DNA of 64,000 nt from an uncultured Candidatus Melainabacteria bacterium (GTDB lineage: Bacteria > Cyanobacteriota > Vampirovibrionia > Gastranaerophilales > Gastranaerophilaceae): assembly GCA_949927415.1 (NCBI GenBank), contig CATLFB010000001.1, forward strand, positions 310,001-374,000. Reading direction: 5' to 3'. A program made the position numbers and the translations under genes. How positions within the stretch are numbered: position 1 is the first letter of the stretch; each line of letters starts with the position of its first letter. The notes beneath the pieces were generated by a model. That model worked only from the letters and a program-made list of their open reading frames with translations, searched no databases and was not told the origin of the DNA. This document shows positions 7,817-50,644 of the stretch, piece by piece.

Positions 7817-7845
7817 TTGACAAAACTTGAAAAATAATTCATAAT
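7817..7845 (+). promoter_or_regulatory. Sigma-70-type promoter of the poly-C pilin gene
   Basis: TTGACA (7817-7822), a 17-base spacer and CATAAT (7840-7845). The predicted transcription start near 7852 leaves a leader of under 20 bases before the GGAGG Shine-Dalgarno and the ATG at 7869. This supports translation starting at 7869, upstream of the C tract, and not at the GTG at 8011. Confidence 0.65.
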
Positions 7846-7868
7846 TTAAAGAGGAAATGGAGGTAGAA

Positions 7869-7922
7869 ATGCATAGAGAAGACAGTTTTATTACTTGCCC
7901 CCCCCCCCGTCAAATCCGCTAA
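7869..7922 (+). other. Leader reading frame containing the C11 tract (pilin out of frame)
   Basis: An ATG at 7869 is preceded by a strong Shine-Dalgarno (GGAGG at about 7859-7863). As assembled it encodes MHREDSFITCPPPRQIR and stops at 7920-7922. With one C fewer (or two more) in the 7898-7908 tract, the frame runs on through 34 open codons into the pilin frame at 8011, giving a protein of about 310 residues. The leader is therefore probably the true 5-prime end of the pilin gene in a phase-OFF state. Confidence 0.65.
7898..7908 (+). repeat. C11 homopolymer tract, putative phase-variation switch
   Basis: Eleven consecutive C residues on the coding strand, within the leader and 103 bases before the continuous pilin frame. 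Length 10 or 13 would place the leader ATG in frame with the pilin; 11 does not. In a low-GC genome such a run is not expected by chance. This is the only tract of the set that is C, not G, on the coding strand. Confidence 0.8.
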
Positions 7923-8010
7923 TAGCAAGGGTTTCAACCACTTTGATTCATTTTTAAAACGGATTTTTTTATCTGATTTTACAGGGATTTTTACAAGCAA
8001 TGCTGATTTT

Positions 8011-8802
8011 GTGAAAAAGAGCATTAATTTGTCATTGCGTCAGAGGGCATTTACAATGGCTGAGGTTTTGATAACCCTTGGCATCATCGGGATTGTTGCG
8101 GCACTGACAATTCCCCAGTTGATAAAAAATCATGAGAAGCGGGTTTTGCACACGCAATTTCTCAAGATGTACAGCGATTTGAACAATGCCGAAAAACTTT
8201 TTGAGGCAAAAGAAAACATTACGGTGCATGAATACAGCAAAAATCTTGGCGACCCACAAGCCGGCACAGAAGAAATGGAATCAACATATATGTTGAAACT
8301 TTTTATGCAATATTTTAACGGGCAGGCTGGCGCAACAGGCTCTATGAGTAATACAGAAGAAGGCGAATATAGAAAAGATGTATACAAACGGATGCTCGGA
8401 TACATTCCGGCCGCACTGAACGGATCTAATACATCATCTCAACCCTGCGATGAAAGTATAATTATGAGCGACATTGCAGGAAGATTTTTTGTAATGGACA
8501 ACAACCTGACAGGCGTGGTCGCAAATGCTCCGAACGGTCCTAAAATATGCGTTGACACAAACGGCAAAAAAGGCCCGAATAAATACGGCTATGACTGGTT
8601 TGTATTTACATTTACATCCAAAGGAACGGTTATTCCATACATTGGAAACAGCTTAACATCTTATGGAGCGGATTTGGAAGACCCGTCAACAGAATGTTCT
8701 TATTCAAGAAATTCTGCAACTTACACCTGCGGATATTACGCGCTTTCCGACACTCGTCCTGACGGAGAGGGCGGAACCTACTGGAAAGATTTCCTGAAAT
8801 AA
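8011..8802 (+). CDS. Type IV pilin-like protein, class B (phase-OFF leader)
   Basis: Secreted or surface pilin-like protein with a prepilin peptidase site RA/FTMAEVLITLG (Glu at +5; Ala in place of Gly at -1), one N-terminal hydrophobic helix and a C-terminal globular domain. That domain carries DTNGKKGPNKYGYDWFVF and ends TYWKDFLK, the class B form also seen at 28583 and 46257. The given start is a GTG at 8011 with no Shine-Dalgarno. The better start is the ATG at 7869, separated from this frame by one extra C in the tract. Pilus subunit, pseudopilin or surface adhesin cannot be told apart here. A strong terminator follows at 8841. Confidence 0.8.
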   Translation: MKKSINLSLRQRAFTMAEVLITLGIIGIVAALTIPQLIKNHEKRVLHTQFLKMYSDLNNAEKLFEAKENITVHEYSKNLGDPQAGTEEMESTYMLKLFMQYFNGQAGATGSMSNTEEGEYRKDVYKRMLGYIPAALNGSNTSSQPCDESIIMSDIAGRFFVMDNNLTGVVANAPNGPKICVDTNGKKGPNKYGYDWFVFTFTSKGTVIPYIGNSLTSYGADLEDPSTECSYSRNSATYTCGYYALSDTRPDGEGGTYWKDFLK

Positions 8803-8840: not shown

Positions 8841-8873
8841 AAAACGGGAAGATCTGAAACTCTTCCCGTTTTT
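8841..8873. terminator. Bidirectional terminator
   Basis: A perfect 12-bp stem (8841-8852 with 8861-8872) with an 8-base loop, flanked by A- and T-runs. It lies between the converging pilin gene (+) and the SNF2 helicase gene (-), and can serve both. Confidence 0.85.
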
Positions 8874-25202: not shown

Positions 25203-25259
25203 TTATTTTCGGGTGCCCCCCCCCCCCGGAAATCCAGTCATAGTGAACATTTTAAACAT
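25203..25259 (-). other. Leader reading frame containing the G12 tract
   Basis: An ATG at 25259 follows AAAGGAG at ideal spacing. As assembled the leader is MFKMFTMTGFPGGGGTRK and stops at 25203-25205. Its first 30 bases are close to the leaders at 29483 and 50672 (Met-X-X-Met repeats, then TGF or EF, then glycines), so it belongs to the same cassette. Confidence 0.7.
25216..25227 (-). repeat. G12 homopolymer tract, putative phase-variation switch
   Basis: Twelve C residues on the plus strand (G12 in the coding sense) inside the leader of the pilin gene at 24374. After the tract the pilin frame is open without a stop (APENNAPARFLTFGKS). Length 11 or 14 would be ON; 12 is OFF. Confidence 0.82.
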
Positions 25260-25343: not shown

Positions 25344-27938
25344 CTAAATTTCACAGTCATCACTTACAAAAAGATTCAGCTGCGGAACTTCCAGTTCAAT
25401 ATTTTCAACCTTTTTGCGTGTTGCAAGGTTGTTCGAAAAATCTTTCTGCATTTTGACCATCAAATCCTGCGAACGTCTGATTACAGTATTAGGCAGTCCC
25501 GCCATCTTCGCAACCTGAATACCGTAACTTTTGCTTGCGCCGCCCTGAACTATTTTGCGCAAAAATTCGATTTCTCCGTTTTCTTCGGTCACGGTAATTC
25601 TGTAATTCTTAATTTGCGGATATGAGTTTGTCATTACATTAAGTTCATGATAGTGGGTTGCGAAAATACATCTTGCTTTTATTTTTGTCGCGATATGTTC
25701 AGCAACCGACCAGGCAATTGCAACACCGTCGTAAGTGCTTGTGCCGCGGCCGATTTCATCCAGCAGTATAAAGCTTTTATCTGTTGCCGAATTGAGAATG
25801 TAGGCTGTTTCAATCATTTCAACCATAAATGTAGATTGCCCTAAGGTCAAATCATCTGACGCTCCCACACGTGTGAAAATCTTGTCAACAACGCCTAGTT
25901 TAAGGTAATCTGCCGGAACCCATGAGCCTATTTGCGCAAGCAATACGATTAATGCGTTTTGGCGCATATACGTTGATTTACCTGCCATGTTCGGTCCTGT
26001 CAAAATCATGAATTGAGTTTTGTCAGTTGTGTTGCTCTGAAGTTCAAGGTCGTTTGAAACATACTCGCCAAGCGGAAGAATTTTTTCCAGAACCGGATGG
26101 CGGCCGTTTTTCACAATGAAATCTCCGGAATCATCAATTTCCGGTTTGCAGAAGTTGTTTTCCGCAGCCGTTTGCGCTAATGATGACAATACATCGGCTT
26201 TTGCAATACAGTCTGCTATTTCTCTGATTTTTGAAACCAGATTTTTAGATTTTTCTCTGAAATCAGTGAAGATTTTATATTCAAGTTCTGTTGTTTTGAA
26301 TCTTGCAGACAGAACATCATCTTCATGTTTTTTAAGTTCTTCGGTTATATAGCGTTCAGCGCCTGTGAGGGTTTGTTTGCGGACATAATTTTCCGGAACC
26401 ATATTGCGGTAAGAATTGGTGATTTCGATAAAGTAGCCGAAAACTTTATTTTCGCCGACTTTCAAAGACTTGATGCCGGTTTTTTCGCGTTCTCTTTCTG
26501 CAAAATTAATCATCCACTCTTCGCCGTTGGTCAGCAAATCACGGTAATAATCAAGTTCGCCGGAAAAACCTTCTTTGATAATTCCGCCTTCTTTTATAAC
26601 CATCGGCGCGTCATCTTTGATTAAATTGTTTATTTCTTCAGCAAACGCCGTTATTTCTTCTTCGTAAGCAATTATACTTCTGAACGGGTTGTTTTGCAGT
26701 CCGCCCGAAATCTCTATTAACTCGGGAAGCATTTCCAAAGACGCCTTTAAACTCAAAAAGTCTTTCGGGTTTGCTGAATTGTTACTCAATCGGGTTGCGA
26801 GGCGCTGGATATCGTAGATTTTTTCCAGAACTTCTATTAATGAAACTCGGGTTGAGGCTTTTTCTACAAGTTCGGTTACGGCTCTTTGGCGAAGCATGAT
26901 ATCAGAAACCCTTTTCAGAGGCTGGCAAATCCAGTTTCTCAAAAGTCTTGCGCCCATGTTTGTTTTAGTCTGGTCAATAGCCCAGAGAAGAGATCCGTAT
27001 TTGTTCTTTTCGCGCATTGTCTCGACTAATTCCAGATTCTTTCTTGTTCCGGCGTCGAGAATCATGTATTCGGACAATTCATAGGCTTCTATACGCTCAA
27101 TTTTAGGGACATTTTCTTTCATGCTTTCCCAAACATAAGCAAGAAGCGCACCTGCTGCGCGAAAACCAAGTTTATATTTGTCATACCCGAAAGCCGTCAG
27201 CATACCCGGCGTAAAGACCGCCTTCAGATTTGAATCAGACATAGAATTTTCAAAAACATTTGAAGGGATTTTAGAGCAATTGTATGAATTAACAATTCCT
27301 TCAGGCAAATCGACTTTTTCTTCCGGTACAATTTGGAAAGGCTTAATTTCGCCGCGAATAGAAGGTGCAACGATTTCGGCGGGCGATATTCTTGCAAGTT
27401 CTGACATCAAAAGATTTAACGGCGCCTGCGTAACTTTAAATTCGCCGGTCGAAATATCGGAATAGGCAAATCCGTAAAGGTCGGATTTTTCATCCTTAAA
27501 CATTGCGGCAATATAATTGTTGGCATTTTGTTTCAGAAAATCGCTTTCGGTCAGTGTACCTGATGTTACAATTCTTGTTACACCGCGTTTTACAAGCCCT
27601 TTAGCGAATTTTGGATCTTCAAGCTGGTCGCAGAGTGCAACTTTGATATTTTTCTGAACCAGTTTTTCAAGATAACCGTTTATTGCTTTGTAAGGTATCC
27701 CGGCAAGCGGAATTCTGCCGTATTCGGAACCTGAGTCGCGGCCTGTGAGAGTCAGTTCCAGTTCTTTTGACATTAGAACTGCATCTTCGAAAAAGGTTTC
27801 GTAAAAATCTCCAAGGCGGTATAAAAGCACAGCCCCGGGGTTTTGGCGCTTAATCCGCATGTATTGCTGCATGACCTGCGTCAATTTTTCTATTTCTACT
27901 TCCCATGAATTTATTTGATTGATTTCTGATTTTGACAT
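25344..27938 (-). CDS. mutS: DNA mismatch repair protein MutS
   Basis: Recognises base mismatches and small insertion/deletion loops. The 864-residue protein is complete: the N-terminal mismatch-binding domain has YRLGDFYETFFEDA with the Phe-X-Glu-type motif, the core follows, and the ATPase domain has Walker A LTGPNMAGKSTYMRQ, Walker B FILLDEIGRGTSTYDG and the ATHYHEL motif. MutS is the protein that normally corrects slippage in homopolymers, so an intact copy bears on the stability of the G/C tracts in this window. The 3-prime end lies about 80 bases from the pilin leader at 25259. mutL is not in the window. Confidence 0.97.
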   Translation of the reverse strand: MSKSEINQINSWEVEIEKLTQVMQQYMRIKRQNPGAVLLYRLGDFYETFFEDAVLMSKELELTLTGRDSGSEYGRIPLAGIPYKAINGYLEKLVQKNIKVALCDQLEDPKFAKGLVKRGVTRIVTSGTLTESDFLKQNANNYIAAMFKDEKSDLYGFAYSDISTGEFKVTQAPLNLLMSELARISPAEIVAPSIRGEIKPFQIVPEEKVDLPEGIVNSYNCSKIPSNVFENSMSDSNLKAVFTPGMLTAFGYDKYKLGFRAAGALLAYVWESMKENVPKIERIEAYELSEYMILDAGTRKNLELVETMREKNKYGSLLWAIDQTKTNMGARLLRNWICQPLKRVSDIMLRQRAVTELVEKASTRVSLIEVLEKIYDIQRLATRLSNNSANPKDFLSLKASLEMLPELIEISGGLQNNPFRSIIAYEEEITAFAEEINNLIKDDAPMVIKEGGIIKEGFSGELDYYRDLLTNGEEWMINFAEREREKTGIKSLKVGENKVFGYFIEITNSYRNMVPENYVRKQTLTGAERYITEELKKHEDDVLSARFKTTELEYKIFTDFREKSKNLVSKIREIADCIAKADVLSSLAQTAAENNFCKPEIDDSGDFIVKNGRHPVLEKILPLGEYVSNDLELQSNTTDKTQFMILTGPNMAGKSTYMRQNALIVLLAQIGSWVPADYLKLGVVDKIFTRVGASDDLTLGQSTFMVEMIETAYILNSATDKSFILLDEIGRGTSTYDGVAIAWSVAEHIATKIKARCIFATHYHELNVMTNSYPQIKNYRITVTEENGEIEFLRKIVQGGASKSYGIQVAKMAGLPNTVIRRSQDLMVKMQKDFSNNLATRKKVENIELEVPQLNLFVSDDCEI

Positions 27939-28582: not shown

Positions 28583-29461
28583 CTATTTTGGCAAGTTTTT
28601 AAAATAATCTTTGTCGGTCAATGCGTTGTATGTACATCCTGCACCGTTCATACTGCCGGATGAAGAAGGTGAACAGTATGCAGCGGTTGAACTGTAATAA
28701 TAGGAATCAGGAACTCCCATTGGAAGAAGTTTTCCTTTTTCATCAATCTGAAATATGAAAAGGTCTTGCCCGAGCCTGTTGGGATTTTTGTTGTAGCCGT
28801 TAACATCAATTGAGATAAACAAAAATCTGCCGTTATCTTCCAGCAGAACCAAACTGCCGTCATTAAGCACGAACTGTCCGTCATCAAAGAAATTTAAGTT
28901 TATAGAATGACCGTTCAGTGTTTTGTATGTTTAAGAGTTGTTTTCGGTTGTTCCGATATTAACATAGTTTGGAATGCAAGTTTTTTTAATTGCTTCTGCT
29001 GAAGTTTCGGCACCTTCGCCGCAATCGCGTGCTATTTTGAAATATTTTATGAGTTTAGATTTTAATTGTAATTTTGAGCTGCTTAGCATTATGCGCTCGC
29101 CTGTTTCGGCTTGATACATATCAAGCGCCTGACTTATCAGAGAATACGACCTTTTCAAGCCTGCTTCCAGTTGTTTGTTGCGGCTATTGTTGATTACGGC
29201 AGGCAACGTCATGGCAGCAACTATTCCGATTACCCCAAGCGTAATAAGAACTTCCGCCAGAGTAAATGCAAGACGGCGATTGTTTAGAATATTGTCTGCG
29301 GCTGCAGGATTGAGTGCTAATGCAAACCTGTTTTTTAAAGTAGCATTAAGTTTTTCGTTTTTAAAAAAATATTTTTGTGAATCGGAGGCGTTTTTAAAAT
29401 AATTTCTGTAAAACCCTTTAAAGATGAGTTCAGCGACTGCCCCCCCCCCCCGCAAATTCAA
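28583..29461 (-). pseudogene. Type IV pilin-like gene, class B, with tract-OFF leader and internal stop
   Basis: The N-terminal part (28931-29461) has LA/FTLAEVLITLGVIGIVAAMT. An in-frame TAA at 28931-28933 ends it after GTTENNS. The same frame continues (YKTLNGHSINLNFFDDG) to 28583, with the class B features IDVNGYNKNPNRLGQDLFIF and DYFKNLPK. The upstream ATG leader at 29483 is one base out of frame because of G12. The gene thus has two lesions: a reversible-looking tract and a point nonsense mutation. The downstream sequence remains intact, so the stop seems recent, or may be an assembly error. Without both lesions the product would be about 299 residues. Confidence 0.75.
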
Positions 29462-46256: not shown

Positions 46257-47033
46257 CTACCATGGAAGATTTTTCCAGTAGGATTTGGAATTATCTTCCG
46301 GCGAAACATCGTTTACTGCATACCATGCACATCCCATTCCGTTTAGAAGCTGGGTTGAATTTTTATTACAGGGAAAGCCGGCTAAATGCACATTTGTTTC
46401 ATTTTCTAATTCCTCGTCAGTATATCTTCGGGATTCTTTTAAGGGTTTTATCTGGTCTGTAGAATCCATCACCCGAAACTCAAATATATCAAAACCAAGC
46501 CTGTTTGGTTTTGAATAAGGCCCGTTTGTATCAACATAAATTCGAATGTGATTCATGTTTATATGAATCCCTACACTGCTCCCGTCAGGCAAAACTTTCA
46601 CGGCCGTCGGAGCATCCTTACCGATATTTGAAGTAATTGTTTTTGTTTTAGTATAATTCGTCATCGGATACATTGATTTTTCATAAGTTTTCATGATTTT
46701 CAGATTATTATAGAATTCATCAATGAAACGCTTTGCCTCCGGGTACTCTACCCCGTTATAAGTAGCAAAAGCAGCACGAACATTTGAAACGCCAAGCGAG
46801 GCTTTTGTCATTAGATAGGCGTTAGAAATATTTGCATAAGATTTCTTGAGACCGGTCTGAAGAACTTTAGCCTGATAATTTTTTATAAGTTGAGGAATTG
46901 TCATCGAGGCAACGATTCCGATAATGCCGAGAGTAATTAAAACTTCCGCTAACGTAAACCCTAAAACCCTTGAAAGGAGCTTATTTTCGGGTCCCCCCTC
47001 CCCCGTAAATTCAGTCATACCGTACGTTTTCAT
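46257..47033 (-). CDS. Type IV pilin-like protein, class B, leader locked in frame
   Basis: A 258-residue pilin-like protein. The ATG at 47033 follows AAGGAG at 6 bases. The leader MKTYGMTEFTGEGGPENK matches the phase-variable leaders elsewhere, but its G run is broken by an A (G5-A-G6) and is in frame with the pilin. Gly at -1 and Glu at +5 are canonical (LG/FTLAEVLITLG). The globular part contains YVDTNGPYSKPNRLGFDIFE and ends SYWKNLPW (class B). This is the only member of the tract group expected to be constitutively in frame, and it shows what the ON form of the others looks like. Confidence 0.9.
   Translation of the reverse strand: MKTYGMTEFTGEGGPENKLLSRVLGFTLAEVLITLGIIGIVASMTIPQLIKNYQAKVLQTGLKKSYANISNAYLMTKASLGVSNVRAAFATYNGVEYPEAKRFIDEFYNNLKIMKTYEKSMYPMTNYTKTKTITSNIGKDAPTAVKVLPDGSSVGIHINMNHIRIYVDTNGPYSKPNRLGFDIFEFRVMDSTDQIKPLKESRRYTDEELENETNVHLAGFPCNKNSTQLLNGMGCAWYAVNDVSPEDNSKSYWKNLPW
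46993..47004 (-). repeat. Interrupted G tract (G5-A-G6), stabilised leader
   Basis: The plus strand reads C6-T-C5. The position is equivalent to the pure G12 tracts at 25216, 29440 and 50629. The single interruption should suppress slippage and the reading frame is ON. Confidence 0.8.
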
Positions 47034-49828: not shown

Positions 49829-50644
49829 TTACCAAGGATAATCTTTAGGAAACTTCCAGTTGTTATATTGTAAAAGCTTTGCACAATATGGTGCACTCGG
49901 GTTTCCTTTACGGCATCCGTAACGAGAATGGGTTATCAACTTTTCGTACGTCCCGTCCCAATTGAAAGCATAAGGCTCTACAGTGGTCTTACGATTCAAT
50001 GAGCGGTGAATAACGTTCCCGTCCTCATCCATACCGTCAATTTTATTAAACTGAAAAGCAAAAGAATTTCTTAAGCCCGGCTCATATTTTCCGTTTATAT
50101 AATAGACAATATCCCCGCCGTTTTGATCATATCTAAAAATAAACATCCCGCCTGATGTAAGGTAAACACAGACTTTATTCTCAATACAGTTGTCATAACG
50201 ATTATATTTCAGATGTGGCAGAAAATATTTGTTTAGAAATTCAAGATTTTCCTCATAAGTTAAATCTTTACGCTCACCCATCCAGTTTTCGACATCTCCG
50301 TATTCAACAATAGCAAATTGAACAGCATTATTAATCGTATTGTAAAATTTGTGAACCTTAGCGGCTGCCGCTTCTTTCTGCGCATTTCCAATGACCGACG
50401 GAAGAGTCATCGCAGCAACTATTCCGATGATTCCGAGTGTAATCAGAACTTCCGCCAAAGTAAATGCGTGCAAATATTTCCCTGCCGGATTATTTCCGTA
50501 CCCAATCCTTTTACTTTTAGCAAACGTAAATTCCTGCCTGTGATTATTCGAAAAACCACCGGCAAAATTCGCATTTTTCACTGATGCAAAACAGTTAAAA
50601 AACCCTTTAAGAGAGCAGTTACCGGACGCCCCCCCCCCCCGCAA
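49829..50644 (-). CDS. Type IV pilin-like protein, class A (phase-OFF leader)
   Basis: Pilin-like protein with HA/FTLAEVLITLGIIGIVAAMT. The globular domain has NGGDIVYYINGKYEPGLRNS and ends LQYNNWKFPKDYPW (class A). The listed start is a TTG within the tract region. The real start is probably the ATG at 50672, after TAAGGAG and a TTGCAT/TATAAT promoter, but G12 leaves it one base out of frame; 11 or 14 G residues would give about 280 residues. The stretch QEFTFAK ahead of the cleavage site resembles a decayed second copy of FTLAE. Confidence 0.8.
   Translation of the reverse strand: MRGGGASGNCSLKGFFNCFASVKNANFAGGFSNNHRQEFTFAKSKRIGYGNNPAGKYLHAFTLAEVLITLGIIGIVAAMTLPSVIGNAQKEAAAAKVHKFYNTINNAVQFAIVEYGDVENWMGERKDLTYEENLEFLNKYFLPHLKYNRYDNCIENKVCVYLTSGGMFIFRYDQNGGDIVYYINGKYEPGLRNSFAFQFNKIDGMDEDGNVIHRSLNRKTTVEPYAFNWDGTYEKLITHSRYGCRKGNPSAPYCAKLLQYNNWKFPKDYPW

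Follow-up and report, generated by a model that had tools for sequence, protein, structure and literature searches.

Homopolymers of G or C in genes for surface structures are a classic slipped-strand substrate, and phase-variable genes with poly-G or poly-C runs are found in Neisseria (e.g., pilC), Campylobacter, and Helicobacter. Poly-C and poly-G runs are also named among the repeats of phase variation (PMC3711429). The loci of Gastranaerophilales described here are similar to those of Neisseria, Campylobacter, and Helicobacter: a run of approximately 8–14 identical bases, G or C, close to the 5′ end of a putative surface-structure gene sets the reading frame, and a single-base change would switch the gene. 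Unlike those systems, the runs of Gastranaerophilales are situated in a predicted removable prepilin leader, about 45 paralogous pilin-like genes occur in one genome, and nearly all loci have the same offset with a stop directly behind the run. Mismatch repair genes are present in the genome, and a change of run length within a population is a prediction.

Genes with transcriptional slippage on A or T runs—those of IS transposases (PMC1088944) and Citrobacter tssM (PMC4256274)—share with our loci a conserved out-of-frame layout at a homopolymer; here, however, the runs consist of G or C, the sign of the offset is opposite in two genera, and in-frame DNA alleles are recurrent. The +1 frameshift of the prfB type is similar in the one-base excess, the G-rich stretch, and the stop soon downstream in the starting frame, but no conserved slip codon precedes the stop in our loci, the C-run form has no G-rich stretch, and a second genus needs the opposite shift. 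A full-text literature search found no paper on phase variation in Gastranaerophilales.

Organization of the Pilin Locus

The locus is situated in a window of 64,000 bp from a genome of Candidatus Gastranaerophilales (2.18 Mb, 22 contigs). All elements of the gene are on the plus strand. A sigma-70 type promoter, TTGACA-17-CATAAT (7817–7845; −35 at 7817–7822, −10 at 7840–7845), scored 11/12, which was reached by 0.14% of shuffled upstream regions. A Shine–Dalgarno sequence GGAGG (7859–7863) is located 5 nt 5′ of the leader start ATG (7869–7871), and the leader runs into the candidate switch, a C11 run (7898–7908). As assembled, the leader frame (7869–7922, MHREDSFITCPPP...) comprises 17 codons and ends with the stop TAA at 7920–7922, which corresponds to the OFF state. 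Runs of at least nine C occurred four times in the window, counted as 15 overlapping matches; the expected number was 0.04.

The promoter, GGAGG, ATG, C11 run, and stop after 17 codons had all been reported in the initial annotation, and direct reading of the sequence confirmed each of them. The annotation had further stated that with one C fewer the leader joins the pilin frame through 34 codons. The reading frame bears this out: at 10 C, 34 codons in the frame of the ATG at 7869 lead up to the GTG at 8011, beyond which the frame stays open to the stop at 8800–8802, and 13 C also brings the locus into frame. The pilin frame comprises 297 codons 3′ of the run, or 310 residues in total from the ATG at 7869; one peptide that would span the run is EDSFITCPPPVK.

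The part of the prepilin leader that remains in the pilin frame (7909–8049, VKSANSKGF...RQRA) would be absent from the mature pilin if cleavage precedes F. It contains the only plausible internal start, the GTG at 8011–8013; we failed to find a Shine–Dalgarno motif 5′ of this codon on direct reading, as the initial annotation had also noted. The mature pilin-like protein (8050–8802, FTMAEVLITLGIIGIV..., stop at 8800–8802) matched the N_methyl profile PF07963 with 23.1 bits (cut-off 21.2) through its N-terminal F-T-x-x-E hydrophobic segment, by which it qualifies as type IV pilin-like. Cleavage by a prepilin peptidase of PilD type is expected from membership in the N_methyl family. A terminator-like inverted repeat (8841–8872) is located between the pilin gene and a convergent helicase-like gene.

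Run–Leader–Pilin Units in the Genome

The genome contained 66 C or G runs of 8 or more bases, and all of them were retrieved. Most are found in prepilin leaders, which are short and have a ribosome site; the run begins 7 to 13 codons from the leader start, and the downstream protein, encoded in a different frame, carries the prepilin motif F-T-L-A-E-V-L-I-T-L-G. Some 45 units of run, leader, and pilin were identified in total. Matches to the same leader among named genomes were almost all metagenome assemblies of Candidatus Gastranaerophilales.

The minus strand of the window encodes three sister switches, each having G12 in the coding sequence and an excess of one base: at 25216–25227 (L018; leader ATG at about 25259, pilin frame to 24374), at 29440–29451 (L019/L103; leader MSKMYTMIEFA, pilin frame to 28931), and at 50629–50640 (L020; leader MSEMMTMTEFA, pilin frame to 49829). 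A further sister pilin on the same strand (46257–47033, MKTYGMTEFTGEGGPENKLLSRVLGFTLAEV) has a run interrupted by A (GGGGGAGGGGGG) and is in frame; it is probably locked ON.

Several contigs of this assembly (G000) start at or within about 120 bases of runs (L052, L061, L070, L071, L072), often in near-identical MxQSxKxNTLSQ leaders; the copy number of the units in G000 is thus a lower bound. Run genes lacking the pilin motif were also present in G000: in L033 (C13) and L031 (C11), the frame continues through the run, and L064 (G11, MSMNGSIFAPFAGGG, about 400 codons) has one base too many. A C18 run (L022, G000:C1:388501-388518) is apparently outside any long reading frame.

A mutS-like mismatch repair gene (25344–27938), recognized by its sequence, adjoins the G12 switch at 25216, and MutL is also present in the genome. 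Hypermutability by missing mismatch repair is therefore not the cause of the runs.

Frame Offset in the Genus

A total of 122 distinct loci with a run, a Shine–Dalgarno start, and a pilin were scored in 14 species of the genus. The leader frame had one base in excess of the pilin frame in 100 loci and two bases in 6, while 16 loci were in frame. The one-base excess is the rule across sister loci and not a peculiarity of the locus at 7869. Run lengths varied from 8 to 14. The in-frame length differed among loci, and the observed length tracked it: loci needing 11 mostly had 12, those needing 12 mostly 13, and those needing 10 mostly 11 (need class versus run length: chi-square 101, p = 2e-19). 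Thus, it is the offset and not the length that is conserved. Excess 1 was the majority state in 21 of 24 leader families (p = 6e-8 against one-third; the families are not fully independent).

A stop at most 6 codons 3′ of the run was found in the offset frame of 99/99 offset-1 loci checked and in the third frame of 34/99. In 70 of the 100 offset-1 loci, no ATG, GTG, or TTG was found between the run and the pilin motif, so internal starts are not a general route; together with the early stop, this indicates that the pilin is normally reached only via the run. The pilin frame was open for at least 150 codons in 96 of the 100 loci; most pilin genes are thus intact though nominally off. Within the genus, 63 of 118 loci had a sigma-70 match of 10–11/12 just upstream of the leader, whereas shuffled sequences predicted about 2.8. 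With its own promoter, each unit looks autonomous and transcribed, which places the control at the reading frame.

Some broken or short runs, hardly able to slip, nevertheless had excess 1 together with an open pilin frame (L153, L208, L209, L230). Broken runs being always in frame would favor recoding; this is not so: L152 is in frame, L151 has excess 2, and the four loci just named have excess 1. Pairing of the Shine–Dalgarno sequence with GCTCCT after the G run gave a helix value of 7.17, and swapping the partners gave 6.80 (sd 0.10), a small difference possibly due to relatedness; this pairing partner was absent from the C-run locus.

In the leader family MALLLxFRGGG (L077, L085, L227), a conserved TTGAATTTCAGGGG is read in another frame, and the stop close behind the run is kept along with the excess of one base via compensating indels. 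Six loci (L079, L087, L099, L101, L110, L120) carry repeat-element sequence (RHPEPKAKD..., CHPEPSGAG..., HSELAAKSVETKSKRDFMPL...) between the run and the downstream domain; their frame is open despite the repeat element, and their leaders are 80–150 residues long.

Run length differed in 22 of 34 paralogue or orthologue pairs with 80–98% identical flanks, part of the difference being base changes at the run edge; among close paralogues, the difference was 1–2 bases. Pairs of ON and OFF copies occurred within one genome: in G012, L174 is in frame with G11 and L180 is off with G12, and G007 has the pair L078 and L118. Such length variants among close copies were found in paralogues of the same or sister genomes.

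C-Run Loci

The initial annotation considered the C-run form a possible independent origin of the switch, and this was not supported. Six members of a C-form sub-family (L015, L017, L042, L058, L060, L067) were found in the genome, and the scorable ones have the same one-base excess as the G form: among the C-run loci that were scored, every one with 11 or 12 C had excess 1. In L015 (C13), no start accompanied by a ribosome site could be located, and the locus was left out of the count; it would have excess 1 too if it starts with the ATG or ATA 5′ of the run. The leader motif MxREDSIITCPPP of the locus at 7869 is common to L058, L060, and L067, and VKSANxKxF of its leader is conserved in L058 and L060.

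C-run leaders with the equal 29-nt spacing from ATG to run were also encoded in another genus (L281, L286, L288), which likewise speaks against an independent origin. Homology of C-form leaders between the two genera was clearly above shuffles only for L288 and weak for the others; the shared spacing and TG-C(n)-G context are firmer than leader homology. The C form appears to be an old sub-family, found in the second genus too. Regarding the C form as an inverted G form, flanks scored 10–12 in either orientation against about 5 for shuffled ones, which favors neither orientation; scores of 18–30 also occurred in this test, but L067, against which they were obtained, is a C-form locus as well.

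Other Genera of the Family

In the family, long G/C runs were found in 50 of the 60 genomes and 33 of the 41 genera sampled (for the genera, at a length of at least 10), with up to 124 per genome. Forty-two loci from other genera, mostly from genus g22, were scorable: 31 had excess 2, 5 were in frame, and 6 had excess 1. The leaders of these loci differ in sequence from those of the first genus and include C-run forms. Most of these loci need 11 for ON, and the usual run length is 10. In both genera, the predicted default is thus one step away from ON, with the opposite sign (12 versus 10, ON at 11). This makes a dedicated ribosomal +1 shift unlikely and fits polymerase slippage, on DNA or RNA.

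Other loci of these genera (L253, L256, L259, L274) have runs of G11 to G20 5′ of open frames, some with repeated peptides (ALGSKxSEDADFALEN), and are possibly other switched surface proteins.

Expression of the Pilin Units

The best explanation is default-OFF translational phase variation by slipped-strand replication, the gene being one step from ON; we assign it a rough probability of 0.6. The gene at 7869 would be transcribed from its own promoter and translated from the ATG at 7869. With 11 C, translation would reach the stop 4 codons past the run, and no pilin would be made; replication slippage that removes one C or adds two would join the leader to the pilin frame and yield a 310-residue prepilin. 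The run lies within the leader portion that prepilin peptidase would remove, so length changes would leave the mature pilin unaltered. With about 45 units one step from ON, few pilins per cell and different pilins in different cells would be expected.

The switch proposed in the initial annotation keeps its foundation: the leader served by the strong promoter and the ribosome site is one base off the pilin frame, and a one-base contraction would turn the gene ON; the run is a repeat in the frame whose length would set ON or OFF. The architecture, the offset and its near-constancy, the early stop, the promoters, and the differences in run length among paralogues were all read from the genomes. 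Changes of length in living populations and pili made in the ON state are what this phase variation would predict.

The main weakness of phase variation is the 100:6 asymmetry between the two OFF settings. Free switching would give excess 1 about as often as excess 2, and an added preference is therefore needed, such as one arising from tight closure of only the excess-1 frame. Furthermore, MutS and MutL should slow slippage, and the four loci with barely slippable runs (L153, L208, L209, L230) have excess 1 all the same.

Recoding, in which the offset is itself the working state, is a considerably less probable explanation. RNA polymerase would slip on the G/C run or the ribosome would shift +1, a share of messages or ribosomes would enter the pilin frame, and every cell would make little of many pilins. 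Conserved frame disruption at a slippery run marks recoded genes (PMC1088944, PMC3711429), and a frame offset is conserved among homologues within the genus, near-constant despite differing run lengths and the compensating indels of the L077/L085/L227 family; the early stop is confined to the unslipped frame, and the pilins are mostly intact in the offset state. Excess 1 at the broken runs L153, L208, and L209 would be consistent with a shift of the ribosome. The other sign of the correction in g22 misfits a dedicated ribosomal +1 site. Moreover, transcriptional slippage in the cited literature concerns A/T runs, in-frame alleles recur (16/122), and close paralogues differ in the length of the run in DNA. 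In a narrower and marginally less probable form, slippage of RNA polymerase would make the one-base offset the working state of tens of pilin genes, with length changes of DNA as a second layer. RNA-level slippage accounts directly for the 100:6 asymmetry but leaves the sign change between genera and the recurrence of in-frame alleles unexplained.

Constitutive synthesis of the pilin from the GTG at 8011, with a 13-residue leader (MKKSINLSLRQRA|FTM) and the upstream leader frame as a relic or minor regulator, is improbable. This leader has an ordinary prepilin shape, and some sister loci have internal starts of the KEGFMKKS type; however, the GTG has no ribosome site, the leader start is the one served by the strong promoter and GGAGG, and internal starts are missing from 70 of the 100 offset-1 loci and from the leaders of L058 and L060, close C-run sisters of this locus. 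A run length in error through assembly or sequencing, or a dead gene, is highly improbable: although homopolymers are error-prone and all relatives known by name come from metagenome assemblies, opposite errors would be required in the two genera (+1 and −1), the pilin frames are open over at least 150 codons in 96 of 100 loci, and the stop in 99/99 loci for the frame of assembled length against 34/99 for the third frame indicates that evolution has "seen" this length.

Biological Significance

The shared offset of dozens of sister genes points to a genome-wide set of putative surface fibers in this gut bacterium, a member of a non-photosynthetic cyanobacterial lineage; the fibers would be OFF in the default setting and turned ON singly. 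The constant offset poses a sharp question of slippage on DNA versus slippage on RNA; if the latter is true, the whole lineage would express its pilin repertoire through deliberate transcriptional infidelity. If phase variation is true, a largely uncultured gut family would possess a very large homopolymer-switched pilin repertoire of tens of units per genome, the whole of it OFF by default and one step from ON, and surface variation of Gastranaerophilales would be testable from existing metagenome reads.
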